Origin: Sphingomonas sp. Root710 | Lineage (GTDB): Bacteria > Pseudomonadota > Alphaproteobacteria > Sphingomonadales > Sphingomonadaceae | Reading direction: 5' to 3' | DNA: 64,000 bases | NCBI RefSeq assembly: GCF_001429065.1 | Contig: NZ_LMIB01000012.1 | Location: 442,506 to 506,505, forward strand | Part shown: one piece after another, positions 39,086 to 45,861 of the stretch | Position numbering within the stretch: position 1 is the stretch's first letter | Layout of the letters: the number at the start of each line of letters is the position of its first letter | Translations under genes and position numbers: made by a program | Notes under the pieces: model-generated | Database searches by the model: none | Seen by the model: only the letters and a program-made list of their open reading frames with translations | What the model was told of the DNA's origin: nothing

Positions 39086-39361
39086 AAGCACTACAGCCCC
39101 ATCATATCGCCACCGGACGCCCTTGCCCGATCCAGCCGCCGCCGCCCGACAACCCGCCTGATCGTTCGACCATGGTTCATCTTCACAATTGCCTCAAAAA
39201 GGCGGCGCGCGAAACAGAAAAAGCCAACACAAACCGGCACTTTGCATATGCTAACAATTGACGGACGCGATGCAGGCCAATGCCTCGCGGCCTTTTGTGG
39301 CTTTTGTTGGGGCCAGCTTCGCGTTTTTCGGGGTGGTCTATAGGACGACGGCGTGAAATGA

Positions 39362-39711
39362 TGGTGCGGGCGGGGGGACTCGAACCCCCACAGGTCTCAC
39401 GACCTTACGGATTTTCGTACCACTTCGGCTTTCGCCGCCGGGCCGGACCAGCCGGCGCCGTTCGTGGTCTGGACTATCCCTTCGCCCTATCCGCCACCCT
39501 CAGAGGGAGGAGCGGACGTAGGCGCTGCCCGTCTAGTCTCTACACCTTCCGCCGGAGCGCGAGGCCCCTGCGGCTTGGCTCGGGATCACCAGGAAGAGGC
39601 TTCCCCGAATTTGAGCAGTTCTGCATCGCCGGTTTCCCGGCGAGCACTCGATGCCGGAATCTTGCCTTTCCGCTTCAAGTCCGTTGCGTCTACCAATTTC
39701 GCCACGCCCGC
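39362..39711 (-). tRNA. tRNA-Leu(UAA), interrupted by a group I intron
   Basis: Minus strand. 5' exon 39711-39677 (35 nt, acceptor GCGGGCG, D-arm GGCGAAATTGGTAGACGC, anticodon stem ACGGA, ending CTT); 3' exon 39415-39362 (anticodon remainder AAAA, TCCGT, long variable arm AGGTC-GTGA-GACCT, T-arm GGGGGTTCGAGTCCCCC, acceptor CGCCCGC, discriminator A and encoded CCA). Joined, the anticodon loop is CTTAAAA, i.e. UAA. All stems pair perfectly. The intron splits the gene between U34 and A35. Standard tRNA scans may miss it. Confidence 0.95.
39416..39676 (-). ncRNA. Group I intron (IC3-like) in the tRNA-Leu anticodon loop
   Basis: 261 nt, no ORF. P1 forms between ACTT|GA (39680-39675) and TCGAGT (39651-39646), placing a U-G wobble at the 5' splice site; an inner extension CGGAA/TTCCG closes the loop. 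Core segments in order: CTCAAATTCGGGG, GAGCCAAGCC, GGTGTAGAGACTAGACGG (R) and GATAGTCC (S). GACTA (39538-39534) pairs with TAGTC (39476-39472), giving P7. The last base is G (39416), the omega-G. These match the cyanobacterial tRNA-Leu(UAA) intron plan. Confidence 0.93.
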
Positions 39712-39855
39712 AGCGTCGCAGCGGGGTGCATAGAGCGTGATTGGCCGGGGTGGAAGCGCTTTGCGTTTTCACGTCGCATCCGCGCTCATTCCGCAGATTC
39801 CCGCCCTCAGCGCCGCGGCGCCTCGAATCGGGCGTGCCGACGGCGGAGCGATAGA

Positions 39856-40134
39856 TCAGACGTTGAGGCGGAGCCGCATTTCCTTACCTGGCTTGAAATA
39901 TGGCACCCGCTTGGCAGAAACGGGCACAGTGTCGCCAGTCCTCGGATTACGTCCAATACGCGCGCCACGGCTACGCGTAGAAAAGGCGCCGAAGCCACGA
40001 AGTTCTACACGGCCGCCTTCTGCGAGCCGCTTTGTAATCGCGTCGAACAATGTCGAAACGATCTTTTCGACTTCTTTCGGAGAAAGATCGGGATTGTCCT
40101 GCGACAACAATTGTACCAACTCGGATCTGATCAC
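39856..40134 (-). CDS. ihfB: Integration host factor subunit beta
   Basis: 92 residues. HU/IHF fold with [19 protein letters not shown] at the start, [20 protein letters not shown] (about residues 43-62) and [20 protein letters not shown] containing the DNA-intercalating Pro. The N-terminus and RVELRGFG are of the beta type. It binds and bends DNA with the alpha subunit, encoded elsewhere. Single gene; its terminator region reaches towards tRNA-Leu. Confidence 0.95.
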
Positions 40135-40238
40135 AAAGCCACCCCCGTTGATGTCATGCCCGAGCCCGTAAATGCACCGTCCGCAGATTTGGCCCCGTCA
40201 TCGACCAGGGCCGACCCCTTTTAGGCCCTGTCTCCACC

Positions 40239-43485: not shown

Positions 43486-45861
43486 TTACCCCCTCAACCG
43501 CGCGCCCAGCTTGGCCGCCGCCGCGACGATCTTTTCGGAGATCGCCTGGAGGTCGGCATCGGTGAAGCTCTTCTCGGCGGGCTGGAGCACCACCTCGATC
43601 GCGACCGACTTCTCCCCCTCGCCGACGCCCTGGCCGACGAAGATGTCGAACAGCTTCACATCGACGATCGCCGTCTTGTCCGCGCCACGCACCGCGCGCA
43701 GCAGCTCCTCGCCGGCCTTGTCGGCGGCGACGAGGAAAGCGAAGTCGCGGCGGACCGCCTGCAGCGCAGGGGGCGCATAGGCATCGCGCATATGGTCGAC
43801 CGAGGCGCGCTTCGTCGGGATCGCGTCGAGGAAGACTTCGGCGGCGACCGCCACGCCTTCGATGTCGAAAGCGCGGGCGATGGCGGGGTGAAGCTCGCCG
43901 AATTCGGCCAGCACCGTCTTGGGGCCGAGCCGCAACGTGCCCGAGCGACCGGGATGATAGACCCCCGCCGACACCGCCTCGAACAACTGCAGCCGATCGA
44001 CCGGCGCGCCCGCCGCGCCCAACAGCGCCACCACCTCGGCTTTGGCGTCATAGGCGTCGAAGGGCTGGGCGCGGCCGGTCCGCCAGTCGCGCGACACCCG
44101 GTCCCCGGTCAGCAGCAGGCCGAGCGTCAGACTCTCGCGATCGGCCAGATAGCGGCGCCCGATCTCGAACAGGCGGATGCTGTCCGCGCCGCGATCGGCA
44201 TTGCGGCGCGCGGCGGCGATCAGGCCGGGGAGCAGTGACGGCCGCATCACCTTCAGATCTTCGCTGATCGGGTTGGCGAGCGTCCAGTCCCCGCCACCGA
44301 AGGGTGCTGCCTCGGCCTCGCTGACGAAGCTCCAGGTCACCGCCTCGTTCAGCCCGCGCGCTGCGGCGGCGCGGCGGCTGCGGCGCTCGATCATCTGCAT
44401 CTGGGTCGCGGTGGGCGGCGCGACGCCCTCGGCGCGAGGCAGCGGCGTCGAAGGTATATTGTCGATCCCGACGATGCGGACGACTTCCTCGACCAGGTCG
44501 GCAGGGCCGTCGATGTCGCGCCGCCAGCTCGGGACCGAGATGTTCCACACCGCGTCGATGCCGAAGCCGAGCGCGGAGAGGATCGAACGCTGGCGATCGG
44601 GCTCGACGGTCAGGCCAGCGATCTTGGCGGTGAGCGTCGGATCGTAGCGGAGCGCCTTGGTGCCCGATGGCGGTGTGCCCGCCTCGACCGCCTGGGTCGG
44701 CGTGCCACCGCAGATATCGAGCACCAGCCGGGTCGCGATGGCGAGGCCCGCGCCGAGGAACTGCGGATCGACCCCGCGTTCGAAGCGGCTGCGCGCGTCG
44801 GAGGTGACACCGAGCTTCTGGCCGGTGCGCGCGATGCTCTCGGGCGTGAAATAGGCGCATTCGATCAGCACGTCGGTGGTCGCGGCGGTTACGCCTGATT
44901 TCTCGCCGCCCATGATGCCGCCGATATCGTCCGCGCCATTGGCGTCGGCGATCACCGTCATCGTCTCGTCGAGCGTATAGGTCTTCTCGTTGAGCGCCAG
45001 CACCTGCTCGCCGGGTTTCGCCTTGCGCGCGACCAGCGGCCCCGACAGCTTGGCGAGATCATAGACGTGCAGCGGACGGCCATGGTCGAGCATCACATAG
45101 TTGGTGATGTCGACCAGCGCCGAGATCGGCCGCTGGCCAACCGCCTTCAGCCGCTTGGCCATCCACTCCGGGCTGTCTCCGTTGACGACGCCCTTCACCA
45201 CCCGGCCGAAAAAGGCGGGGCAGCCCTCGGGGTCTTCGGTACGGATCTCGATCGGGCATTCGCCCTGCCCGGCGATCGTCGGCACGTTGAGCGGCTTCAG
45301 CGTACCGAGCCCGGCCGCCGCCAGATCGCGCGCGATGCCGCGCACGCCCATGCAGTCCTGCCGGTTTGGCGTGATCGCCACGTCGATCACCGGATCGGAG
45401 AGACCTGCCCAGTCGACATAGCCCTGGCCGACCGGTGCATCGGCGGGCAGCTCGATGATGCCGTCATGCGATTCGCCGAGTTCCAGCTCACGCATCGAAC
45501 ACATCATGCCGCGCGATTCGACGCCGCGGATCGCGGCGATCTTCAGCGTGACGTCGAGGCCAGGGACATAGTCGCCCGGCCGCCCGAGCACACCGATAAG
45601 GCCTGCGCGCGCATTGGGCGCGCCGCAGACGATCTGCAGCGGCTCGCCCTCGCCCGCGTCGACCGACAGGACCTGCAGCTTGTCGGCCTGCGGATGCGGC
45701 GCGGCGCTCAGCACGCGGGCGATGCGGAAGGCGCCCAGCTTCTCGGCGGGATCCTCGACACCCTCGACCTCGAGACCCACCTTGGTCAGCCCCTCGAGGA
45801 TCGCGGTCAGGCTCGCGTCGGTGTCGAGATGCTCCTTGAGCCAGGACAGGGTGAACTTCAT
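43486..45861 (-). CDS. pheT: Phenylalanine-tRNA ligase beta subunit
   Basis: 791 residues. tRNA-binding OB domain near residues 40-150 ([13 protein letters not shown]), B3/B4 editing region ([12 protein letters not shown] near 215), B5 domain, catalytic-like core and C-terminal FDX-ACB domain ([20 protein letters not shown]). Forms the alpha2-beta2 enzyme with PheS, whose gene overlaps the start by 4 bases. Normal length. Confidence 0.97.

Follow-up and report, generated by a model that had tools for sequence, protein, structure and literature searches.

A split tRNA-Leu(UAA) gene on the minus strand

The window, by which we mean the whole 64,000-nt stretch of Sphingomonas sp. Root710 DNA that was analysed, carries on its minus strand a tRNA-Leu(UAA) gene (39711-39362) that a group I intron of 261 nt interrupts directly after U34. 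The coordinates given in the preliminary description of this region (39362-39711) were exact, and the strand, absent there, is added here. When the exons are joined, an 89-nt class II cloverleaf tRNA is obtained in which 7/7 acceptor, 5/5 anticodon and 5/5 T-stem positions are paired, in agreement with the earlier view that two tRNA-Leu halves combine into a cloverleaf with anticodon UAA. The features of the locus and the evidence for each are as follows:

39362-39711, minus strand: whole tRNA-Leu(UAA) gene with intron (exon/intron reading, host caller score 28-type match, alignment of relatives)
39677-39711, minus strand: 5′ exon, 35 nt, with 3′ end C32 U33 U34 (GACTT invariant in 19 relatives)
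39416-39676, minus strand: group I intron, 261 nt (RF00028, 26.8 bits; R1, our covariance model of the intron core with 128 positions, 112.2 bits; pair counts)
39362-39415, minus strand: 3′ exon, 54 nt, from A35 through the encoded CCA (sequence and alignment of relatives)
39646-39651, minus strand: internal guide sequence UCGAGU, the 3′ strand of P1, with a G facing U34 (U.G in 19/19 rows, columns 35/63)
39613-39618, minus strand: P3 5′ strand CUGCUC; 3′ strand GGGCAG at 39525-39530 (pair counts)
39603-39608, minus strand: P4 5′ strand UCGGGG; 3′ strand UCCCGA at 39580-39585 (pair counts; invariant and so without covariation)
39534-39538, minus strand: P7 5′ strand GACUA; 3′ strand UAGUC at 39472-39476 (Rfam match and pair counts)
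39521-39524, minus strand: P8 5′ strand CGCC; 3′ strand GGCG at 39483-39486 (pair counts)
39416, minus strand: terminal (omega) G of the intron (sequence and alignment of relatives)
39856-40134, minus strand: gene for an HU/IHF-type DNA-binding protein upstream of the tRNA, a conserved neighbour (Pfam PF00216, E=6.8e-30; neighbour test)

A simple scan of the locus found no promoter-like or terminator-like site, which we count against the explanation preferred below. ARAGORN reported three tRNAs in the window and the intron-split tRNA-Leu(UAA) was not among them, so the expectation that a tRNA finder would miss the gene was correct. A mis-call by ORF callers had been predicted as well; a 314-aa open frame (39280-40224, plus strand) does cross both the tRNA and the HU/IHF gene in antisense direction, has no Pfam match and is likely a false gene call. 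Elsewhere in the window, a 90-nt tRNA-Arg(UCG) called by ARAGORN (44003-44092, minus strand) was unsupported by Rfam at the gathering score and is probably spurious.

The Rfam scan of the window at its default threshold returned nothing at the tRNA-Leu(UAA) locus. With the threshold lifted, Intron_gpI (RF00028) matched 39660-39456 on the minus strand over the full model with 26.8 bits (E=1e-4 in 701 bases). The covariance search proposed in the preliminary description thus gave a full-length match with a score below the gathering score of 50, and this shortfall also counts against the preferred explanation. The gathering score is a curator's cut-off and not a biological trait; the same model gives the relative in Sphingobium cupriresistens 62.8 bits.

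The assembly searched for tRNAs (4.77 Mb, 21 contigs) yielded 44 other tRNA matches, including Leu anticodons UAG, CAA, CAG and GAG. A search with the spliced sequence retrieved only its own two halves, with Leu(UAG) (78%) and Leu(CAA) (75%) as the next matches. A second, intact tRNA-Leu(UAA), raised earlier as an objection to a working split gene, was therefore found in the 21 contigs neither among the 44 anticodons read nor with the spliced sequence. As tRNA-Ile(GAU) and tRNA-Ala(UGC) are likewise missing from the 44, the assembly may lack the rRNA-operon regions, a caveat on the sole-copy finding that is again counted against the preferred explanation. Among 38 GC-rich window ORFs, chosen mechanically, 7 of the 1,510 Leu codons are UUA, and demand for tRNA-Leu(UAA) is therefore low, but not nil.

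Fold and covariation of the intron

Read from the sequence, P1 is formed by ACUU/GA (slash, splice site) and UCGAGU with a U.G pair at the splice site, P2 is capped by GAAA, P5 is a short hairpin, P6 is GCC/GGU and P9 is a hairpin with a GAAA loop. The core comprises the P3/P7 pseudoknot, P4-P6 and P8, and P7 is the guanosine-binding helix of group I introns. The P1 wobble, the P7 pairing of GACUA with UAGUC and the G as last intron base had all been noticed before. Each is present: the U.G at the 5′ splice site, a group I hallmark, recurs in 19/19 Leu(UAA) rows, and P7 is backed by pair counts across relatives. In the wider set of introns described below, a final G was a precondition of the host caller and no independent test.

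Comparison of 19 Leu(UAA) genes of the same family, covering tRNA and intron helices, revealed standard pairs in 99.0% of 1,240 cells, vs. 92.0% in shuffles and 32-46% in slid versions. Double-change cells numbered 82 (21.1 in shuffles) and pairs changed on both sides 20 (11.6 in shuffles). In a set of 28 cores spanning several tRNA hosts, 96.8% of cells were paired and 51 were double-change cells, vs. 11.7 in shuffles; these came largely from P3, with CUGCUC/GGGCAG for Leu-type and GGUGUC/GGCACC for Lys-type cores. The P3 of the Lys(UUU) relatives is presumably that of the Azoarcus tRNA-Ile(CAU) intron. P4, P6 and P9.0 are nearly invariant and thus uninformative on covariation either way. The predicted P3-P8 core with its P3/P7 pseudoknot, as expected of a group I intron, is in this way backed by covariation, and the placement of such an intron at U34/A35 of tRNA-Leu(UAA), proposed earlier, is borne out by the anatomy and by the 19 relatives.

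The evidence for intron structure rests on comparison, since the fold of the single sequence is only modestly better than that of shuffles (z -2.43, with 2/100 shuffles equally good), a further result counted against the preferred explanation. The test of P1 over 253 sites was weak: at least 4 pairs were seen in 92% of sites, but also at 51% of control U positions. By eye, a C precedes GAGU in the window's genus where many relatives have UU or UUU. The putative P10 with A35-A37 of the 3′ exon accordingly looks weaker in this genus than in the relatives, and this too we count against our preferred explanation.

With its short P5 hairpin and no P5abc-like extension, the intron would fit subgroup IC3, in line with a statement on IC3 introns in an excerpt of PMC11835236. 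No endonuclease ORF was found within the intron, whose three overlapping ORFs have no Pfam match at E≤0.1, and a homing group I intron with an endonuclease gene was rejected on this ground. An archaeal or eukaryotic endonuclease-spliced tRNA intron (short, at 37/38) was ruled out by the length of 261 nt, the 34/35 site and the ribozyme core.

Relatives, tRNA hosts and descent

Within the family, sampled as Sphingomonadaceae in the broad sense, blastn detected the Leu(UAA) gene with its intron in 19/199 genomes and a related tRNA-Lys(UUU) intron in one more. R1 matched 49/397 same-family genomes, one of them (G687) by 25 bits only. Strong relatives (≥86 bits) occupy 51 sites in 48/397 genomes: 44 in Leu(UAA), of which 41 were assigned by script and 3 by inspection, and 7 in Lys(UUU), where the script assigned 6 (2 of them tie-resolved against Thr(UGU)) and inspection 1. 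Counted per genome, 43 have the intron in Leu(UAA), 7 in Lys(UUU) and 2 in both. Eleven listed genomes of the window's genus match R1, and the genus is not represented among the no-match genomes listed, which seem to be sorted by kinship and start with other genera. Across the class, 31/385 Alphaproteobacteria match RF00028 and 50/385 match R1; together with the 48/397 in the family this confirms the earlier suspicion of a wider, under-annotated set. One genome (G800) carries two intron-bearing tRNA-Leu(UAA) genes on separate contigs (L400, L415). The tRNA-Lys(UUU) introns, at 34/35 or 35/36, occur in sphingomonads including Sphingomonas cremea and S. solaris (L075:1426-1734 of G027, L116, L158, L424-L429).

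Orthologous alleles without the intron exist in the same family. A strict pattern for the intact gene was found in 38/149 genomes and in 0/16 of the Leu-intron genomes among the 149; a looser pattern found one intact copy each in 13/13 genomes chosen from those with neither, so the shortfall of the strict pattern is at least partly its own fault. The HU/IHF-type gene lies directly upstream at 16/19 intron loci and 8/13 intronless loci. As this neighbour is shared by both kinds of locus, the intron is gained and lost at a single gene of the chromosome.

Outside the family, R1 matched 41/398 genomes across the phylum, 28 in Alphaproteobacteria and 13 outside the class. A scan of 84,980 named species genomes with the core pattern gave at least 118 stretches and at least 119 sites. 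Hosts among the sites listed were Leu(UAA) 52, Arg(CCU) 24, Met/Ile(CAU) 10, Lys(UUU) 4, Phe(GAA) 4, Thr(GGU) 3, Asn(GUU) 2, and Thr(UGU), Arg(UCU), Leu(CAA) and Lys(CUU) 1 each; 16 of the 119 had no tRNA host call. Hosts were called with our own cloverleaf scorer, which gave at least 24 at 101/119 listed sites and at least 20 at 0/313 displaced control positions. Of the anticodons with A34 only ACG was allowed, sites had to lie within 33-36 and ties were resolved by P1 length; single isotype calls may be wrong. L425 and L428, tied between Lys(UUU) and Thr(UGU), were taken as Lys since their exons match L429 and L158; L460 was set by hand from Ser(CGA) to Arg(CCU), a listed alternative; and L400, L419 and L423 (Leu) and L427 (Lys) were assigned by eye. 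Beyond the family the host counts are incomplete, because the regular expression recognised a core in only part of the R1 loci (43/47 in the family, 37/47 in the class and 18/38 in the phylum).

Named Leu(UAA) hosts include Sphingomonas yantingensis, S. canadensis, Sphingobium cupriresistens, Rhodovulum steppense, Bradyrhizobium lablabi, Reyranella soli, Paracoccus zeaxanthinifaciens, Carnimonas nigrificans (Gammaproteobacteria) and, in Bacteroidota, Phaeodactylibacter luteus and Phaeodactylibacter xiamenensis. In cyanobacteria, 16/59 genomes match RF00028, with introns in Leu(UAA), Arg(CCU) and Met. An AT-rich Leu(UAA) intron of cyanobacterial/plastid type in an alphaproteobacterial MAG (L087, G276:C103) is likely a contaminant and was set aside.

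Several other settings of the core were observed. Introns of tRNA-Thr(GGU) at 36/37 in Alphaproteobacteria (six loci) form one clade (96/95), and Parcubacteria-type MAGs have related cores in tRNA-Phe(GAA) at 33/34 (four loci). At least 120 viral stretches contain the core pattern; among the viral matches listed, 15/125 sites were in Leu(UAA) and 87/125 in no tRNA, and some of these contigs may be proviruses with host flanks. In Synechococcus phage S-CBWM1 (MG450654.1, 112532-112582), 58 query core bases match at 84.5% under an annotated psbA/group I intron/homing endonuclease. Gordonia phage Daredevil (NC_048021.1, 41852-42010; L537) has an unannotated intron-like core (67.7% over 53% of the query) in a gap between integrase and small genes.

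A full-length match at 66% led to a plasmid-borne tRNA-Leu(UAA) interrupted by a group I intron (213 nt) of alphaproteobacterial type, exemplified by pCTX-M3 (NC_004464.2, 61823-62121; L520:5001-5299), where its neighbours are an AAA-ATPase/tunicamycin-resistance-like gene and aac(3)-IId. The gene is present on 1,280/72,556 plasmid records, over at least 80% of its length on 1,257, and 935 of the 1,280 are typed conjugative. A 1.8-kb stretch with aac(3)-IId is covered to at least 80% at one place in 1,230 records, and aac(3)-IId alone matches 2,340 plasmid records. In complete E. coli genomes the plasmid-type gene was found in 635/5,426, at 589 places on plasmids and 81 on chromosomes. None of the 10 E. 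coli matches listed had an annotated feature under the gene, and one RefSeq region, examined as a whole, contained no tRNA annotation. The plasmid intron, whose core scores 122-124 bits, shares 93.5% identity with its counterparts in Enterovirga aerilata and a Bradyrhizobiaceae MAG, and 92.5% with the one in a Novosphingobium MAG. Near 16 chromosomal carriers, tblastn found no aac(3)/tmrB-like relatives. The simplest reading of these identities would be that tRNA gene and intron were transferred together across classes. Lying beside aac(3)-IId, the plasmid intron is a sequence tag that may help to trace the origin of that plasmid segment.

Trees were calculated from 253 distinct introns and from a reduced set of 137. 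Rows with no host call, introns longer than 480 nt and identical introns were dropped from both, and the 137-row tree also lacks all viral rows, the long cyanobacterial L376 and randomly thinned members of large groups. Host labels change 26 times on the 253-intron tree (minimum 12, shuffles 103.7) and 15 times on the 137-intron tree (minimum 10, shuffles 61.6). The changes are few, yet exceed the minimum, and the introns therefore mostly keep their tRNA, with extra host switches. The window intron groups with its own genus (100/99, 97/98) and, one step further out (97/85), with two alphaproteobacterial MAGs, one of them from Bradyrhizobium; other sphingomonad Leu introns are placed elsewhere on the tree. 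The Arg(CCU) rows form their own clade (99/94), and the Leu introns sampled from cyanobacteria sit apart on a long branch (0.78, 100/100).

We consider it unlikely that one old tRNA-Leu intron was inherited vertically and lost many times with no transfer. The conserved chromosomal neighbour at 16/19 loci, the strong clustering of host labels and the single group formed by all same-genus rows are what such descent would predict. Against this, a single clade was rejected both for 21 sphingomonad rows (AU p=0.0036; 16 family rows plus Sphingomonas yantingensis, S. canadensis, a Novosphingobium MAG, Sphingobium cupriresistens and a Sphingomonadales MAG) and, with caution owing to the long branch, for all Leu(UAA) rows (AU p=0.023). 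For the Lys introns taken together, the evidence against a single clade was not clear (p=0.054). Near-identical introns in Novosphingobium, Enterovirga, a Bradyrhizobiaceae MAG and plasmids likewise speak against vertical descent, although this case is weakened by the short alignment (207 columns) and unsettled bootstrap; the long cyanobacterial branch and possible recombination further limit the trees.

The preliminary description had offered transfer as an origin of the intron. The sequence comparisons support transfer among proteobacterial lineages, but not a cyanobacterial source: the nearest kin lie in the same genus and then in alphaproteobacterial MAGs, and membership in the cyanobacterial/plastid tRNA-Leu(UAA) lineage is opposed by the AU test, read cautiously for the same long branch. 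Most of the patchiness is probably due to transfer between bacteria and not to repeated loss.

Predicted splicing, possible mobility and known tRNA introns

Taken as a whole, the locus very probably represents the sole tRNA-Leu(UAA) gene found in this genome, its anticodon interrupted by a group I ribozyme that should excise itself to leave the 89-nt tRNA. After transcription, the intron would fold into its P3-P8 core with P4-P6 and bind guanosine in P7; the chain would be cut after U34, at the U.G of P1, and U34 ligated to A35. Splicing of the window intron, also without the help of proteins, is expected from its sequence; in favour of this reading, a related alphaproteobacterial tRNA-Arg(CCU) intron, BbgpI of Bartonella, is described as self-splicing in the part of PMC7717549 consulted, according to which its tRNA had been unannotated.

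It is very improbable that the intron has instead degenerated past self-splicing, leaving a pseudogene or a copy dependent on a protein cofactor. The Rfam score below threshold (26.8 vs. 50) and the weak P10 in the window's genus would agree with decay; the exons, however, are intact, the core is preserved in the 19 relatives with nearly all cells paired, UUA codons are in use with no other UAA copy found, and 11 genomes of the genus match, with none of its members among the no-match genomes listed. A cofactor may still be required. Chance resemblance or an assembly artefact, for which nothing but the low Rfam score speaks, can be practically dismissed, being refuted by relatives in other genomes, including those of the named isolates Sphingomonas yantingensis and S. 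canadensis, that share the exon/intron layout and the neighbour gene.

The cyanobacterial tRNA-Leu(UAA) introns resemble the window intron in tRNA, site (U34/A35) and order of core segments, but differ in their separate long branch and in the rejection of a single Leu(UAA) clade, to be read with the long-branch caution given above. The Azoarcus tRNA-Ile(CAU) intron, of subgroup IC3, has a likewise small tRNA-borne core in another tRNA. A tRNA-Leu(UAA) intron at the same site was reportedly found in a Pseudomonas isolate, a gammaproteobacterium (Vepritskiy 2002), and tRNA-Arg(CCU) introns are said to be sporadic (Paquin 1999). The Agrobacterium/Bartonella tRNA-Arg(CCU) intron shares the core type and, in the same part of PMC7717549, a tRNA missed by annotation; it differs in its tRNA, its site (36/37) and its own clade.

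That this site is rare outside cyanobacteria and plastids, as supposed at the outset, was an overstatement. Group I introns of proteobacterial tRNA-Leu(UAA) are already known: a passage of PMC4853749, citing MacGregor 2013, lists putative group I introns of Beggiatoaceae in tRNA-Leu-TAA and tRNA-Arg-TCT. The tRNA-Leu-TAA intron sits in the same tRNA of a proteobacterium but belongs to Gammaproteobacteria, and it is likened here by its description. Excerpts of two further papers mention tRNAs with group I introns in cyanobacteria, alpha- and betaproteobacteria (PMC4033280), and bacterial introns as mostly tRNA- or rRNA-borne with reverse splicing unproven (PMC3984707). In the open-licence literature searched for this intron in Alphaproteobacteria, the breadth of tRNA hosts, the repeated non-monophyly within one family and the plasmid copy were unreported.

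A broader view, which we offer tentatively and hold to be somewhat less probable than its opposite, is that these introns form one mobile ribozyme lineage of bacterial anticodon loops. Through reverse splicing and the transfer of whole tRNA alleles between lineages, with plasmids among the carriers, the intron would keep its core but gain new targets after a U in at least 10 kinds of tRNA: Leu(UAA), Leu(CAA), Lys(UUU), Lys(CUU), Arg(CCU), Arg(UCU), Thr(GGU), Thr(UGU), Phe(GAA), Asn(GUU), Met/Ile(CAU). It would favour tRNAs for little-used codons, where slow splicing may be cheap.

As the intron-split gene is missed by the tools, such genomes look as if they had no tRNA-Leu(UAA). For roughly 1 in 9 of the same-family genomes sampled, a tRNA overlooked in annotation seems to be supplied only through ribozyme splicing, and the window intron belongs to a patchy, easily missed family of introns in many bacterial tRNA genes.
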